NCBI GenBank assembly: GCA_028873925.1
Contig: JAPPNA010000124.1
Span: forward strand, 1 to 56,146
From: Bacteroidota bacterium
Lineage (GTDB): Bacteria > Bacteroidota > Rhodothermia > Rhodothermales > Bin80
Direction: 5' to 3'
DNA length: 56,146 bases
Part shown: piece by piece, positions 10,448-55,867 of the stretch
Numbering within the stretch: position 1 is the first letter of the stretch
Layout of the letters: every line of letters begins with the position of its first letter
The notes under the pieces: generated by a model
Told to the model about the DNA's origin: nothing
Database searches by the model: none
What the model saw: the letters and a program-made list of their open reading frames with translations, nothing else
Made by a program: the position numbers and the translations under genes

Positions 10448-11482
10448 GTGCTGATTCTGGGCATAGACACTTCCTGCGACGACACCAGCGCCGGTGTTGT
10501 AGACAGCGGACACACCGTTCGGTCCAATGTGATCGCCTCCCAGTACGCTGCGCATGCCCGGTTTGGTGGTATTGTACCCATGATTGCCGCACGCGAACAC
10601 ACGCAGAGGATTTCCTACATCATCCAATCCGCGCTTGATGATGCGCAGATAGGGTTTGGTGATCTGGATGCGGTGGCCGTTGCACATCATCAGGGTCTGC
10701 TGCTATCGCTGGTAGTAGGCGTATCAGCGGCCAAGTCCGTCGCACTGGCGTGCGATATACCGTTGATTGGGATGCACCATCTGGAAGGCCACATCTACTC
10801 CAACCTTATGGGTCGTCAGCACGAATTACCTTTCCCGTTTTTGTGTCTGACTGTGGCGGGCGGACATACGCTGCTGCTTAAGGTTACCGCGCACAGCCGA
10901 TACGAACTGCTGGGCTTTACACGGGATGATGCCGCCGGCGAAGTATTTGACAAACTGGCGCGTACGCTTGGGCTTGGCTTTCCTGGAGGGCCTGCGGTAG
11001 AAAAGCTGGCCGCCGAGGGCAATCCCCAAGCATATGAGTTTCCCCGCCCACTTATCAACCAGCCCAACTTTGAGTTCAGCTTCAGCGGGCTCAAGACAGC
11101 TGTAATTCAGGCGGTTGAGCGGGATCCGCAGGCCAATGCGGCGGATGTATGCGCGAGTTTTCAGCAGGCTGTCATTGACCTGCTGGTGACCAAAACCATC
11201 CGGGTGGCCAAAGCTCACGGACTCACCCGCATTGCGCTGGCCGGCGGCGTTGCCCTAAACGGCCCGCTCCGCGTTGCCCTGCAACGGGAGTGTGAAGCCC
11301 TCAACTACCGGATGTTTGTTCCGCCCCGCGACCTTTGTATGGATAACGGTGCGATGATGGCCGGTGCCGGGTACTTCCTCTACCGACTCCGCGGCGGTGA
11401 TCCGCTTACGATTGAGGCCCGCGCCAACGCTCCCCTGGGACAACTCGGCATTCGATACCGGCCCGAAAGCAAATACAACTAA
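10448..11482 (+). CDS. tsaD: t6A threonylcarbamoyltransferase TsaD
   Basis: This 344-residue protein starts with GTG at 10448. It transfers the threonylcarbamoyl group from threonylcarbamoyl-AMP to A37 of tRNA. Conserved parts include GIDTSCDDTSAGVVD, GGIVPMIAAREH, the metal-binding HHLEGHIYS, EVFDKLARTLGLGFPGG, FSFSGLKTAV and DNGAMMAGAGYF. One block is odd: where the family has TxGPGLxGxLLVG this protein has AHHQGLLLSLVVG, so the GPG turn is lost. TsaB keeps its own GPGSWTG. A decayed copy of this gene's last 235 bp lies at 15674-15907. Confidence 0.92.
   Translation: MLILGIDTSCDDTSAGVVDSGHTVRSNVIASQYAAHARFGGIVPMIAAREHTQRISYIIQSALDDAQIGFGDLDAVAVAHHQGLLLSLVVGVSAAKSVALACDIPLIGMHHLEGHIYSNLMGRQHELPFPFLCLTVAGGHTLLLKVTAHSRYELLGFTRDDAAGEVFDKLARTLGLGFPGGPAVEKLAAEGNPQAYEFPRPLINQPNFEFSFSGLKTAVIQAVERDPQANAADVCASFQQAVIDLLVTKTIRVAKAHGLTRIALAGGVALNGPLRVALQRECEALNYRMFVPPRDLCMDNGAMMAGAGYFLYRLRGGDPLTIEARANAPLGQLGIRYRPESKYN
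11243..11480 (+). repeat. tsaD 3' end, intact member of a duplicated pair
   Basis: The last about 238 bp of tsaD recur, with scattered substitutions and small indels, at 15674-15907 on the same strand. This copy is in frame and functional-looking. The direct repeat encloses about 4.2 kb of insertion-sequence and gene debris. Confidence 0.9.
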
Positions 11483-11606
11483 AAGCCCAAGCTTGCGCCA
11501 GTCAGCACCTTGTCCCAAGTGTATCTACTTAGTGCGAGAGATGGCTACATTAGTGCTTGCCCGACAAATAGATGCTGGACCGGATAGGGGGGTGCATTCA
11601 GGGTGA

Positions 11607-13201
11607 TTTTGGCCGGTCTCGCTTACTCTGACTGGGATTTACGCCAGTTTGCCCCTTATAGCTCTCGCGGGCTGTTTTCGCGAGTCTTGATTTAATCTCG
11701 CTGAATTCGCCGGATTTGGGACCGACTCCGGGTGCTAAGCCGTATTTCAGGCGCAGCATTTGAGCCATTATGCGCGAGACATTCGCTTCACCATTTGAGT
11801 TCGGGCAGGTTCCGATTGCGAGCGTCAAGTGCAAGCACCGCGATGACAGTCCGGCGGTGCTGGCGGCCCTGTACACGGACGAAGAAGTACGCCCAAAGAT
11901 TTCCAAGATCCTCAAGGAGCGCGTGCGCCCGCAGGAGGATCACGACCGGGGTCGTCCGGGCATGGACCTGTGGCGCGTTATTGTCCTGAGCGTACTCAAG
12001 CAGACCCTTGATTGTAATTTTGACCGCCTGCAGCTATCTGAAATTGCGCCATAAACTCGGCCATGCGGATGTCTGTGGTCGTGCCGTGTATGAGCCGCAA
12101 ACGATCATGGACAATCTGAGTTGGCGATGTGCTGCTGAGCGAGGTCATTGTGCGGTGCGGGCACAACCTGCTAAATGATCGATTCGCTGGAAGGCGGGGT
12201 GGACTCGGCGGTCACCAAGACGAATGTGCACTTCCTCACGGATGTGAATCTGCTCTGAGATTCAATGCGCGGCCTGCTGCTTGAATTGCCCAAGGCGTGT
12301 ATGGAGCATGAGGTCAAGAGCGGGCGCAAGAGTAAGTTCTGGAGCCCCAAGGAAAGGGCAGTTTTCCAGAGTATGAATACCTCCCACAAGTGGCGCAATA
12401 TGGCTAAGGTGGAGGCGTATTTCGCCGTGTGTCGCCAGCTCGTTGCGCGGGACCAGGGTCACCCTTGCTGAGCTGAAGGCGCTGGAGGCCTCCACCGATA
12501 AGATTGAGAAGTACTTGGCCGATGCCCGTGCGTCAAATTGATCATGTGTAGCGCCAACTGATCAGGAAAGAGGTCATTCCGCATGAGGAGATGTATTTTT
12601 GATCCATGCGCCGCGCACGCGGGCAAGGCGGAGCTGGGGCTGCCGGTGAGCTACCATCAACATCAGTTTATTCTGCACCACCGGATCCTGCATGAGGGGG
12701 TGGACTCGGACATGATTGTCCCCTTTGTGTAGGAGGCTCAGCGTCGTTATCCCACCTTGGACTCCACCAGCACCGACCGCGGCTACTGGTCGCAACGCAA
12801 TCGGGCGAAGGTGAACGCGCTGCCGAAGAAAGGGGAGCAAGTCAAAGGCGGGCCAGGAGCGGGAATCGGCCCCGGAGTTTGTGGAAGCGCGTCGGCAGCA
12901 TCCGGCGATTGAGTCGGCGATCAACAATCTGAACCACCACGGGCTGGAACGCATACGGACCCACGGCGTGGAGAGCTTTGTTCGTACGGTAGCCCTTGGG
13001 GTGGTGGCGGCGAACGTCCATCGGCTCAAACAGGTTGTCAAGGCACGGCAGAAGCGGTACGAGGCGTGGCACCTGGCACGCCAAAAGGCGGCGTAAAGCC
13101 GCCCGCGGGCACCCGGATGGGCGACAAAATGAGTGAAATGGTCAGATGTGCGTCCAATCGGCCCATTTTGGATTGACGATTCAGGCCGAGACTGGCCCAA
13201 A
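11607..13201 (+). mobile_element. Decayed ISNCY-type insertion sequence
   Basis: The element is defined by its transposase relic (11770-13096) and by candidate terminal inverted repeats. TTTTGGCCGGTCTCG at 11607-11621 matches the complement of 13187-13201 at 13 of 15 positions. The resulting length of about 1.6 kb suits this family. The right end is repeated 198 bp further on, so a second copy of the repeat lies at 13385-13399. The inverted repeats are my inference and no target duplication was identified. Confidence 0.55.
11770..13096 (+). pseudogene. ISNCY-family transposase relic
   Basis: Translating across frames recovers a whole DDE transposase of the ISNCY type. The N-terminus has SPFEFGQVPIASVKCK, then GRPGMDLWRVIVLSVLKQTL and DCNFDRL. 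A middle block reads VTKTNVHFLTDVNLL with an internal stop. Another stretch has SYHQHQFILHHRILHEG and then STDRGYWSQRNRAKV, which carries a candidate catalytic Asp. The end has HPAIESAINNLNHHGLERI with the conserved Glu. At least five frame changes or stops separate these blocks, for example TGA at 12256-12258, so the gene cannot make an active enzyme. Block order and spacing are those of the family. Confidence 0.8.
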
Positions 13202-13437
13202 CCGGAAGCTCAGCGAGAACAGAGGCCGAATCCCTCCAAGGCACGGCAGAAGCGGTACGAGGCGTGGCACCTGGCACGCCAAAAGGCGGCGTAAAGCCGC
13301 CCGCGGGCACCCGGATGGGCGACAAAATGAGTGAAATGGTCAGATGTGCGTCCAATCGGCCCATTTTGGATTGACGATTCAGGCCGAGACTGGCCCAAAC
13401 CGGAAGCTCAGCGAGAACAGAGGCCGAATCCCTCCAA
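13040..13437. repeat. 198-bp perfect tandem duplication
   Basis: Two copies lie head to tail at about 13040-13237 and 13238-13435, and I saw no differences between them. The unit spans the last codons of the transposase relic (KARQKRYEAWHLARQKAA) and the candidate right inverted repeat of the element. The lack of divergence, against a heavily decayed transposase, says the duplication is recent. Confidence 0.9.
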
Positions 13438-14014
13438 CGACCAAGTCCATCTTCCTCCCCCACCCCTGCTACACAAATCAGTGTCTAACCGTGTCTCACG
13501 TCTCATGGGTACACAGGGGAGCGACGACGAACAGTGGCCTAATGGGAACATTGGCAGCCCGGTAGTCGTACGTCACGATTTCATTCCTCCAACTGATGCG
13601 ACTCCGTAAGCATGCTTACGCGGCCCTCTTGTTCGCCATCCCATTCCTGGTGGGGATAGGGGGAGGGAGGACCTTCTTTATCTACCCCCGCAACCATTAT
13701 GGCCCGAGTAGCACCCCTGCGGTTAACTACCCTATGCTGGGGCAGGAGATTCCATCAGCCAACCTCATCACACCCCGAAACAAGGGAACCCATACCAGAG
13801 CGTCAATGCTGGACTCGTTCATTGCTATCCTTTGATGTACACCAACAGACCCAGCCCAGCATGACGTTGCGCGGGTCCAGACGGGGTATAGAATCTCGCA
13901 GAGCAGCACCTTAAACGCGTAGGTTAGCATCGGGCGCGATCCGAGCGGGGCTACGGCCGCAGATTCTCGTACTCAAGGGAGGTCGTACCCGATTTGCTTC
14001 AATGCTGGATACGC
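13438..14014. other. Intergenic stretch; one short signal-peptide-like frame
   Basis: No conserved gene is seen. A plus-strand frame at 13596-13835 begins MRLRKHAYAALLFAIPFLVG, which looks like a signal peptide, but the following 50 residues are not protein-like and no ribosome-binding site is evident. It may be the severed start of a lost exported protein. Confidence 0.35.
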
Positions 14015-14395
14015 TCAAAGAGTCAGCAACTCCCGCAGGATCAGCACCAGTAGGGTAATCCCGCTCGTTGAGACGATCCCAAAAAACCACATGATCATCC
14101 CAAACCGCTTGTTGACCGATTCACGCAGACCCGCAATCTCCTTGCTGACCGATTCGCGCAGACCCGCAATCTCCTTGCTAAGCGCGTCAATGCGGGAATC
14201 TACGGCTTCAAACCGGGAATCTACGGCACTAAAGCGAGCGTCAAAGACCCTTTCCAGAGCTTCAAGCCGGGAATCCACGGCTTCAAAGCGAGCCTGCATA
14301 ATCTCGCGGAGAGACCGGATGTAGGACTCAATGGCAACCAAGCGCTCCGCGAACCGGCGCTCTCGGTCTTCGGTGATGGTAGCAGTGTCAGGCAT
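14015..14395 (-). CDS. Small hendecad coiled-coil protein with C-terminal membrane anchor
   Basis: This 126-residue protein has a long helical region of repeats, then one membrane segment near the C-terminus (MIMWFFGIVSTSGITLLVLIL). The coiled coil is visibly built from repeated units: EAVDSR occurs three times in a heptad-like series. KEIAGLRESV occurs twice as an 11-residue unit from a 33-bp tandem DNA repeat at 14114-14179. Such proteins resemble DUF1640 or phage-holin-accessory-like coiled coils, but I cannot assign a family. A similar architecture (charged start, coiled coil, terminal membrane helix) is seen at 54387-54701. The ATG at 14395 lies in a duplicated 81-bp segment. Confidence 0.65.
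   Translation of the reverse strand: MPDTATITEDRERRFAERLVAIESYIRSLREIMQARFEAVDSRLEALERVFDARFSAVDSRFEAVDSRIDALSKEIAGLRESVSKEIAGLRESVNKRFGMIMWFFGIVSTSGITLLVLILRELLTL
14114..14179. repeat. 33-bp tandem repeat coding an 11-residue unit
   Basis: Two copies, 14114-14146 and 14147-14179, differ at about one base. Each encodes 11 residues on the minus strand, the hendecad step of a coiled coil, so the duplication is in frame and lengthens the helix. Confidence 0.85.
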
Positions 14396-14512
14396 CTGAG
14401 TTTATACGAAAGGGTTGCCGGGCGGTTCCAAGAACCGGCGCTCTCGGTCTTCGGTGATGGTGGTAGTGTCAGGCATCCGGGTTTGGACGAACTGGTTGCC
14501 GGGCGGTTCCAC
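14351..14512. repeat. 81-bp imperfect tandem duplication of a gene start
   Basis: Copies at 14351-14431 and 14432-14512 both hold the first codons (MPDTATITEDRERRF on the minus strand) and the leader of the coiled-coil gene. They differ at several bases. The outer copy runs into noncoding DNA, so only the inner one serves the gene. Confidence 0.85.
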
Positions 14513-14767
14513 AGCACCAGATTATTGAGCGGTTCAGATTTAGGGCTTAGCTGAGCTGGTGCATTTCTGGATCGTACCGTACTCTGTTCTCCCCAAGATC
14601 CGTTTGACTCTATGGCATTTATCTTACCATGCAAGGCTTGCACATAACGTAGCCCTACTCATGGCATTAGGAAGTTCCGCCAAGCTCTTGCCACTCACAT
14701 GACCATCCAGATTAGTTTAAGCTATAACTCCATGGCCAGCCTTGTCTGCCGGTGGCGTATCGGGCAG

Positions 14768-15160
14768 TTACCTCAACCCCAACATGCATCCGCCCTACTC
14801 GACCATCAGGGATGCGACAAAAGCTAGGGTCGGCAAATAGAGCCACATCACCGCTGGCCACTACTATGGTCCGGTTTCGCGCCGAGCAATGGCCAATGTG
14901 CTCATGCACTGGAGCGCAAAGAAAAGACGAGCAGGCTCATGGCGACTAGCGGCGTGAAAATCGGGTGCCACTCCGCCTTTAACGCATCCCGCAAGGCCAC
15001 AGAATCTCCACCATCGCCATCGCTGTAGATGATGCCCATCGGGGACATGATAACCTCACGGGCCGCAAATGCCGTAACCAGATCCGCAGATATCTTCCAG
15101 CCGAATCCCAAAGGCCGCCTGACCGGCTCAAGCAGATGCCTGAATCGGCCGATCAGCCTG
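14768..15160 (-). pseudogene. feoB: feoB 3'-end relic (ferrous iron transporter)
   Basis: The minus strand encodes a recognisable C-terminal part of FeoB, the GTP-dependent Fe(II) transporter. The first block is LLEPVRRPLGFGWKISADL, then AFAAREVIMSPMGIIYS and FTPLVAMSLLVF. After a one-base shift the reading continues ALQCMSTLAIARRETG, two stops, then WPAVMWLYLPTLAFVASLMV, a further stop, and GGCMLGL before the natural TAA at 14768. The GTPase domain and first half of the channel are absent, so this is a dead fragment. No feoA or other iron gene is nearby. Confidence 0.85.
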
Positions 15161-15256
15161 TTTCTGATCTGATATGATTGTGCGCCTGTTTTGGTGCAGC
15201 TGCACGGTGATGAATGCGAACTATAACTGAGCGCACCATCGAATCTGTGGCTCACA

Positions 15257-15559
15257 TCAATAATTGGGGTGCTTTAGCAGCCTGATCTCGCGAATCTGTC
15301 CGTTTTGGAGGGGCGCGCGCAGATTCCTCAAATGCCAGTGCGCCAAGCGCGCCAGAGCTCCTAATTCTGTGCTCCGCACCGTACGATCTGGTCTTAAAGC
15401 CCTATGGTTAGCCGCATTGAGCAGCATGTGCTCGTCATTGACTTGCAGCAGTTCCAGCCGATACCGCAGCAAGTGCGGACCCCTAAAGTAGCTGACGAAC
15501 ACAGTATCACTACGCAGCAGCGACCCACGGATCAAGGCTGGGGCAACATTTTCGTCCAC
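15257..15559 (-). CDS. Unrecognised 100-residue frame, possibly a gene fragment
   Basis: An open frame of 100 codons starting MDENVAPALIRGSLLRSD lies just upstream of the feoB relic. Its composition is fairly protein-like (HLLRYRLELLQVNDEHMLL, GQIREIRLLKHPNY), with no membrane segment or known motif. It does not look like FeoB. Given the setting between relics it may be a fragment of another gene. Function unknown. Confidence 0.3.
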   Translation of the reverse strand: MDENVAPALIRGSLLRSDTVFVSYFRGPHLLRYRLELLQVNDEHMLLNAANHRALRPDRTVRSTELGALARLAHWHLRNLRAPLQNGQIREIRLLKHPNY

Positions 15560-15673
15560 TCGCCCATCTTTGACTTGTCAATGATGGGTTAAATCTCGGA
15601 AGTGGTCTACGAAATACCTGGCTCCTCCCAAGGTCCTTCCCTATTAACCGATTGAATCTGGAACACCGCCCCG

Positions 15674-15907
15674 GGCGGCGTTGCCCTAAACGGCCCGCTC
15701 CGTGCTGCCCTGCAACGGGAGCGTGCAGCCCTCAACTCGAATGTTTGTTCCGCCCGCGACCTTTGTGATAGATAACGGTGCGATGATGGCCGGTGCCGAG
15801 TACTTCCCCTACCAACTCCGCGGCGGTGATCCGCTTACGATTGAGGTCCGCGCCATCGCTCCCCTGGGACAACTCGCCATTCAGTATCGGCCCGAAAGCA
15901 AATATAA
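15674..15907 (+). pseudogene. Decayed second copy of the tsaD 3' end
   Basis: This segment matches 11243-11480 in tsaD, including GGVALNGPLR, DNGAMMAGA and the final RPESKY codons. It carries indels, for example two bases lost near 15739 and one in CCGCCCGCG, that break the frame. It lacks any upstream tsaD sequence. It ends 8 bp from the xylB stop. Confidence 0.9.
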
Positions 15908-15914
15908 GCAAGGC

Positions 15915-17405
15915 TCAGCTGCGGAGGGCGAAAAACGGCTTCAACTGCCGGTACAGGGCAGTGAATGCCTCGTAGGGATCCGCATACTGATCCGCCTCAG
16001 GTCCTGGGTGAGTGATCTCCTGCGGTGACACGATAGCATGGCAGGCGGATTCCACCGACTCCCAGCAGCTGGATCCGACACCAGCCAGGATAGCCGCCCC
16101 CATGGCCGCCCCCTCAGGCACTTCTACCATCACCAGTTCAGTGCGCAGCACATCCGCGATGATCTGCCTCCACAAACCACTCCGAGCGCCTCCTCCTGAT
16201 ATCCGCACTTCATGTGGCGGCGGCAGGCCCGCCTGCTGCAGCAGCCCGAAATTATCCCGCAACCCAAAAGCTACACCCTCCAGTACGGCCCGTGTCAGAT
16301 GTCCCCGGCTATGTCTGGGAGTAAAGCCCACAAAGGCACCTTGGGCCAACGGGTCCGCATGGGGTGTACGCTCACCGGTCAGATACGGCAGGAACAAGAG
16401 CCCGTCTGATCCGGCTTCAATGCCGCCCACCTCGTTCAGCAGCGCGTCAAACGACCTGTCGAAAGCGATGGTATCGCGGTACCACTGCAAACTGCCCGCC
16501 GCGCTTAGCATTACCCCCATCATATGCCATACTCCGGGCAGCGCATGCGGAAATGCATGTGCACTTCCGTTGGGATCGCAGTAGGGGGCCGCACATGGAG
16601 CAAAGACCACCCCGGAGGTGCCCAGCGTGATTGTCCACAGGTCCGGCATAATAGCACCCGTGCCGACTGCCTGGGCGGCTTGATCGCCTGCTCCCGCCGC
16701 AACGGGGGTCCCGATGTTGAGACCCGTAGCCGTGGCAGCCTTTCTTGACAGGGTGCCGGTGATTTGGGGGCCTTCGTAGGTATCTGGAAGCCACGCCTTA
16801 GGTATATCAAGAGCTTCAAGAATTGTCTCATCCCAGTCACGCGCCTTTAGGCCCAGCAGCAGCGTGCCGCCAGCCCCTGCCTTATCGGTGGCATATTCGC
16901 CTGTGAGGCGATACCTGATATAGTCTTTGGGCAGCAGGACCTGACGCGTCGCTGCAAATATATTGGGCTCATGATCTCTAACCCAGAGCAGCTTCGGTGC
17001 CGTAAAGCCCGTGAATGCATCATTGCCGGTAAGGGATACCAGCCGATCCAGCCCCAGCGTGCTGCGAATATGCTCACACTGACGGGTAGAGCGGCCATCA
17101 TTCCACAGCATCGCTGGCCTCAGCACTTCACCAGCAGCGTCCAGCAAGACCAGGCCATGCATCTGGCCGGTCAGCCCTACAGCTTTGACCGAATCCGGGG
17201 CCAGATTCTGCTCAGCAAGGAGCCTGCGAATACTGTGGCATGTGGCATCCCACCACTGCGCGGGGTCCTGCTCACTCCACAGCGGTGCCGGACTGGATAT
17301 GTGGTGCGGCGAGGAGGCCAGTCCGATGATGTCGCCCTGCAGGCTGACCGCCAGAACTTTGGAGGCGGTCGTTGAGACATCCACTCCGATAACACATCCT
17401 GCCAT
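15915..17405 (-). CDS. xylB: Xylulokinase
   Basis: This FGGY-family sugar kinase is 496 residues from the ATG at 17405; a TTG four codons upstream is also possible. It should phosphorylate D-xylulose to xylulose 5-phosphate for the pentose phosphate pathway. N-terminal ATP-fold motif GVDVSTTASKVLAV, the substrate loop TGQMHGLVLLD, LWNDGRS, the catalytic GAGDQAAQAVG (Asp base) and C-terminal GGGARSGLWRQIIADV with PEGAAMGAAI are all present. The TGQMHG motif is typical of xylulokinase rather than glycerol kinase. No xylose isomerase or sugar transporter lies in the window. The tsaD relic sits immediately downstream. Confidence 0.9.
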   Translation of the reverse strand: MAGCVIGVDVSTTASKVLAVSLQGDIIGLASSPHHISSPAPLWSEQDPAQWWDATCHSIRRLLAEQNLAPDSVKAVGLTGQMHGLVLLDAAGEVLRPAMLWNDGRSTRQCEHIRSTLGLDRLVSLTGNDAFTGFTAPKLLWVRDHEPNIFAATRQVLLPKDYIRYRLTGEYATDKAGAGGTLLLGLKARDWDETILEALDIPKAWLPDTYEGPQITGTLSRKAATATGLNIGTPVAAGAGDQAAQAVGTGAIMPDLWTITLGTSGVVFAPCAAPYCDPNGSAHAFPHALPGVWHMMGVMLSAAGSLQWYRDTIAFDRSFDALLNEVGGIEAGSDGLLFLPYLTGERTPHADPLAQGAFVGFTPRHSRGHLTRAVLEGVAFGLRDNFGLLQQAGLPPPHEVRISGGGARSGLWRQIIADVLRTELVMVEVPEGAAMGAAILAGVGSSCWESVESACHAIVSPQEITHPGPEADQYADPYEAFTALYRQLKPFFALRS

Positions 17406-17481
17406 GGCCGCACCCAATCGTATATTGTTAGGTTGTATTTGAACCCAAGAGCCGAGAATTCTGCAAAGCCCAAACTATGGA

Positions 17482-55207: not shown

Positions 55208-55500
55208 CGCACCAAATGCTCGGCCATTCCGACTGCATAAGCGACATGGAGTACCCGTTGCAGACGATCATGTACCCTCTGAGTCGGCAGGGTGCCGCTG
55301 GAGATCAACGCGGTCGTGCTGGGCACAAGCGGCTTACTCATTGATTCGCTGGAAGGTCGGATGAACTCGGCGATCATCTGGACGCTCGTGCACGAGCCAC
55401 GGAGGTGGATCTGCATTGGGGCGCAATGCCGCGCAAGCGGTCCGGGGCTTGCCATGAGGTTATGGGCTGACACCGGCATACGACTTGGAGGTTGAAGCGG
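55208..55500 (+). pseudogene. Second ISNCY transposase relic (middle part)
   Basis: This segment is alignable by eye to about 12051-12290 of the other relic. Shared marks are a CTCGGCCAT stretch, GCAGACGATCATG against GCAAACGATCATG, then GGGCACAA and GATTCGCTGGAAGG with a following ACTCGGCG. The translation reads LLIDSLEGRMNSAI and, after a shift, ATEVDLHWGAMPRK. It is more worn than the first copy and lacks both element ends. Confidence 0.6.
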
Positions 55501-55867
55501 CTCTCCAGCGGGTGCGCGTGTCCGGCCGTTGGCGCAATCCGGCTACTGTTGTTTGGCGACAAATAAAATTAGTGGCGGCGACTCTTGGAAACCGGGCGAC
55601 AACGGCCCCATCACCATGTGACACCCCATCCCGGAGAATTCATCACGGTGTCGCTCCAGGCTCCCGAGGCGGCATTGGGTCAACCCGGTGTAGGATTGCC
55701 GCAGCGAGCCGGAAACTTGGCCTATTTGAGGTTGCTAAGGAGGTGAATTGTGGTGTTTTGTAGCCGGAATCCACTGGCTTTCGGTGCCGAATGTAGTGTG
55801 TGTTCGTACCAATCCCGCGTTTTGCCACACGGGGGTCAATACAAGGCGGTGTCCCAGATTCAGTTGG
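55501..55867. other. Intergenic stretch without a supported gene
   Basis: Between two transposase relics. A 92-codon frame from 55485 has no recognised content. Probably decayed element sequence. Confidence 0.4.

Follow-up and report, generated by a model that had tools for sequence, protein, structure and literature searches.

A repeated tsaD 3′ end beside xylB

Why does the 3′ end of tsaD, whose product is an essential tRNA-modification enzyme, occur twice on the same strand, at the two borders of an island of mixed sequence? The window (the whole stretch of DNA analyzed, 56,146 nucleotides) is contig C16 of a draft genome, G000 (3.93 Mb in 185 contigs, 98.6% complete). The final 236 bp of tsaD (11243-11478) are repeated at 15674-15907 with 92% identity (E = 3.6e-90), in agreement with the original prediction that a decayed tsaD 3′ end of about 235 bp recurs on the same strand. 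That prediction attributed the repeat to an element that integrated at the 3′ end of tsaD and brought a replacement end, with ectopic recombination through an insertion sequence (IS) as the rival view. The features of the locus are as follows.

10448-11482, + strand: tsaD, an intact ORF whose protein is 64 to 76% identical to those of 15 family relatives
11243-11478, + strand: left tsaD tail, the functional copy, part of the intact tsaD
11479-11550, + strand: relic of a lipoprotein-like gene (some of its 3′ portion), lying upstream of the IS and fused directly to the tsaD end; 87% identical to positions 1385-1447 of contig C66 over 11488-11550
11551-13429, + strand: IS with a broken, DDE_Tnp_1_6-like transposase (Pfam PF13751), probably of the IS1182 group; its ends are shared by relics on other contigs
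13039-13434, + strand: perfect 198-bp tandem duplication covering the IS 3′ end, from a repeat search
13424-13519, + strand: 96-bp end fragment of a second repeated element (IS), matched at 83 to 84% identity by three other genomic sites that share a right end near 13519
about 13508-13832, + strand: continuation of the lipoprotein-like gene relic, its 3′ end plus the 5′ part of the next gene; 82% identical to positions 1047-1373 of contig C66
14015-14395, − strand: intact coiled-coil ORF (126 aa; hydrophobic segment at the C terminus) with only weak, coiled-coil-type matches
14346-14511, + strand: 81-bp tandem duplication (88 to 90%)
14722-15188, − strand: relic comprising the 3′ end of feoB and the next 46 bp downstream, 84% identical to the intact feoB (contig C138, 1436-3706)
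15189-15673, no strand assigned: orphan sequence up to the right tsaD copy, with no match in its own genome or in the family relatives
15674-15907, + strand: right tsaD tail, a decayed copy (92% identity, 3 indels, frameshifted) in the ancestral position beside xylB
15915-17417, − strand: ORF of an xylB-like sugar kinase, convergent with tsaD as in the gene order of relatives

The two tails differ by 16 substitutions and three short indels, which in the right copy are a 2-bp deletion, a 1-bp deletion, and a 1-bp insertion. The homology begins at 11243/15674, which is tsaD codon 266, and ends at 11478/15907, 4 bp short of the complete tsaD stop. The right copy carries no stop codon at the tsaD position and is a pseudogene fragment. 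In some relatives (L141 and L143), the tsaD stop is missing from its usual place and the reading frame seems to continue toward or into the 3′ end of xylB; the boundary of the tsaD tail thus appears to be evolutionarily loose.

Gene order in relatives

The tsaD-xylB interval, proposed earlier as a check, was compared across 15 family relatives (Rhodothermales/Rhodothermaceae MAGs, which we take to be largely sponge-associated bins), all related at the family level and from outside the genus. The best xylB homologue is the convergent neighbor of tsaD in all 15 relatives; in 14 of them, the matched coding regions lie 8 to 37 bp apart, leaving an empty site at which an undivided tsaD stands next to xylB. 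In the window, 10 bp separate the right tsaD copy from the xylB coding sequence. Because the two genes abut in 14 of 15 relatives and the right copy lies this close to xylB, the right copy marks the old junction and 11479-15673 is an insertion between tsaD and xylB genes that originally stood tail to tail. The relatives settle the direction of the event: the left tail serves tsaD, and the right copy is a decaying remnant joined to xylB. The earlier reading of an insertion at the tsaD 3′ end, with the working end on the left and the old end on the far side, is upheld by the relatives; the integrating element that it invoked is not, since the searches described below yielded no integrase, carrier, or foreign tail.

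The exception among the relatives is G008 (L142:2998-9554), in which a 6.5-kb insert at the tsaD-xylB junction holds one 1,843-aa leucine-rich-repeat gene (LRR/Big_2, with a weak M66-peptidase-like match). A second tsaD tail was not found in this insert. We considered whether it was the same island and rejected the idea on the strength of its gene content and the missing tail; the G008 insertion is independent of the island at 11479-15673. Given G008, the tsaD-xylB junction tolerates insertion without tail duplication.

Composition of the island

By sequence comparison, the island (11479-15673) is a mosaic of gene relics, IS remains, one intact ORF, and orphan sequence. The IS, coiled-coil gene, and feoB relic originally noted between the tails are all present, with the feoB relic now narrowed to the gene's 3′ end and adjoining 46 bp; the lipoprotein-gene relic, the 96-bp fragment of a second IS, and the 198-bp duplication had been missed. 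The IS transposase matches PF13751 weakly (E = 0.011). Relics on other contigs share an IS start at 11549-11551 and an end at 13231 (equivalent to 13429 in the second repeat). The 198-bp duplication, perfect within an otherwise strongly decayed IS, is either very recent or an assembly artifact; the tandem duplications of the island measure 198, 81, and 33 bp. Another decayed relic related to this IS lies near the right end of the window, at 55258-55630 (73% identity at 55260-55414).

The pieces at 11488-11550 and 13521-13832 match neighboring segments of contig C66 (1447-1385 and 1373-1047) that lie 11 bp apart there. On C66, these segments make up the 3′ part of a lipoprotein-like gene that is intact and encodes 358 aa, together with the start of the next gene. 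The gene family (L178:1285-2361; no Pfam match) counts roughly a dozen homologues or relics across the genome, several of them broken or truncated. A search of the genome itself found no resident source for 13833-14721 or 15189-15673. Family relatives gave only short matches to pieces of the island, at 65 to 80% identity. Copying of the island from elsewhere in the window (xylB or the region beyond it) was discarded, as no match was found. Specific collecting of gene 3′ ends (feoB, tsaD, and the lipoprotein-like gene) was also dropped: three cases are too few, and one of them includes the start of the next gene.

Divergence from the resident genes was compared for two of the pieces. At nonsynonymous sites, the tsaD tail has diverged by 6.2% and the feoB relic by 8.8% (P = 0.39); at synonymous sites, the values are 8.3% and 20.8% (P = 0.048). 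The island pieces may share one age, or the one from feoB may be somewhat older; because synonymous divergence is higher in the feoB relic, a single event is not established.

Tail divergence and the search for a mobile carrier

Had an element brought a functional end, the two tails would differ mainly at synonymous sites, both having been constrained before insertion. Among the 16 tail substitutions, 5 are synonymous and 11 nonsynonymous; the synonymous fraction of 0.31 equals the neutral expectation of 0.31 (P = 1.0), and therefore no constraint is visible in the tail differences. Comparison with the closest relative (G001) polarizes 13 of the 16 changes, assigning 9 to the right copy and 4 to the left; the other 3 are unclear. 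At position 11385, the right copy keeps the base of 13 of the 15 relatives, which fits its being the older copy, still in place. The tail-minus-front difference in the identity of the left tail to relatives is −10.3, within the relatives' own range of −6.0 to −13.2; the left tail does not stand out as foreign against the remainder of tsaD. From this pattern, the tail differences seem to reflect the decay of a nonfunctional duplicate of the resident tail rather than the arrival of a foreign replacement end. The neutral ratio, the changes lying mostly on the displaced copy, and the ordinary left tail all speak against the replacement end envisaged originally: a separately evolved, element-borne tsaD end is unsupported, and a same-species donor is possible.

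No integrase was found in the island or the window, as had already been stated, and profile searches of contig C16 for PF00589 and PF00239 gave no match. Across the whole genome, we found one Xer-like tyrosine recombinase (C111) and one resolvase-type gene (C58), both on other contigs. The 3.9-Mb genome, rich in IS relics, has this single tyrosine-recombinase match, compared with 2 to 11 in the family relatives, among the matches listed. As for an integrase beside tsaD in relatives, another check proposed earlier, nothing lies between tsaD and xylB in 14 of 15, and the relatives' recombinase matches are those listed. No tsaD tail was confirmed on the viral contigs searched, the island had no match in the phage and plasmid DNA searched, and no report of tsaD as an attachment site came up in the literature searched. 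With neither an integrase nor a viral, phage, or plasmid carrier detected, the proposal of an element integrating at the tsaD 3′ end is not supported.

Origin of the island

We consider it marginally probable that a recombinational insertion re-copied the tsaD tail and was followed by IS hits and decay. Mixed debris would have entered the tsaD-xylB junction through recombination or the repair of a break, with no dedicated integrase involved. Either a molecule that carried a tsaD tail would have been inserted by a single crossover, or template switching would have copied the resident tail a second time and then rejoined xylB. The remainder would then have decayed, with the IS and the second element entering the lipoprotein-gene relic. 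We propose that the left edge coincides with the tsaD stop codon because the sequence is under selection only as far as the end of the gene. In favor of such an insertion, the island holds broken pieces of the resident genes feoB and the C66 lipoprotein-like gene. Against it, 13833-14721 and 15189-15673 have no resident source, so that the island was not purely copied from its own genome; a left edge at the stop codon would fit a 3′-end-targeting integrase, too; and the comparison covers family-level relatives alone, none of them an intermediate or an empty close relative. That a single break-repair event at this convergent gene junction strung together resident 3′-end pieces (lipoprotein-like gene, feoB, and tsaD) through template switches, copying the tsaD tail anew on its way to xylB, is distinctly unlikely. 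The feoB and C66 pieces have resident templates, two stretches have no source, and the junctions are decayed. A 5-base microhomology (AGCAA) seen by eye at the left junction is too short and decayed to count.

It is rather unlikely that a local tandem duplication of the tsaD tail, which may have included some of xylB, was the first step and that debris and IS then entered stepwise while unselected parts were deleted. The tandem duplications within the island itself would suit such a history, as would the local direct duplications common in the sampled contigs, though many of these are repeat genes, and selection would keep the left boundary at the stop codon; but several steps are required, and no xylB-derived relic follows the left copy, where homology ends at 11478. 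Somewhat less likely still is entry of a site-specific element (prophage or integrative element) into the tsaD 3′ end with a replacement tail, followed by loss of its integrase and most of its genes, as for e14 at icd. The direct repeat of the tsaD 3′ end at both borders (92%), the left boundary at the stop codon, and a geometry and size like those of e14 with its 163-bp icd′ end on the far side (PMC6379469) are what such an element would leave. However, the genome's sole tyrosine recombinase and its resolvase lie outside the island and window, the tail and island searches of viral, phage, and plasmid sequence came back empty, the left tail shows no sign of separate evolution, the DNA on the element side of the left edge is internal to a resident-type gene, and nothing separates tsaD from xylB in 14 of 15 family relatives. 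Ectopic recombination between IS copies, which would have joined the island and the second tail, is highly improbable despite the many IS relics in the genome. The IS is nested in the lipoprotein-gene relic, the flanking pieces of which adjoin each other in C66, and the duplication edges (11478 and 15674) coincide with the island borders, outside the IS (11551-13429). Alignment of the two tails, a check suggested at the outset, thus put the break points at the island edges and not in the IS. Neither of the observations that were to count against the original prediction was made, namely, a break point inside the IS or relatives with the same island and no second tail.

Because of the neutral decay, the lone Xer-like recombinase, and the mosaic content, ordinary recombination is favored as the mechanism, and the island resembles a commonplace insertion scar undergoing decay. 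A gene end repeated at both island borders is insufficient to infer a site-specific element.

Comparison with known systems

Debris of IS-rich pseudogenes is familiar from symbiont genomes. Like such debris, the island combines defunct, nested IS elements with fragments of broken genes at an intergenic site; it differs in having the tsaD tail duplicated at its flanks.

By geometry, the closest analogue is prophage e14 at icd of Escherichia coli, which leaves a 163-bp icd′ duplicate on its far side (PMC6379469). In both cases, a working 3′ end lies on one side and a duplicated end (236 bp here) on the other, on the same strand. Whereas e14 is recognizable as a prophage and has recombination of its own, the island yielded neither a recombinase nor any element gene, and its far copy differs by neutral decay.

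Break-repair insertions with templated pieces and flanking duplication, of the MMBIR/FoSTeS type, have been modeled for human copy-number variation (PMC2621351). The island shares with them a chain of fragments from unrelated resident genes and a flank that was copied again, whereas two of its pieces lack a resident source and its junctions are too decayed to prove microhomology. If the single template-switching event considered above were true, this would be a multi-template insertion of the kind modeled for human copy-number variation, in an uncultured bacterium. Otherwise of local interest, the locus is a worked example of insertion at the tail-to-tail junction of tsaD and its neighbor.
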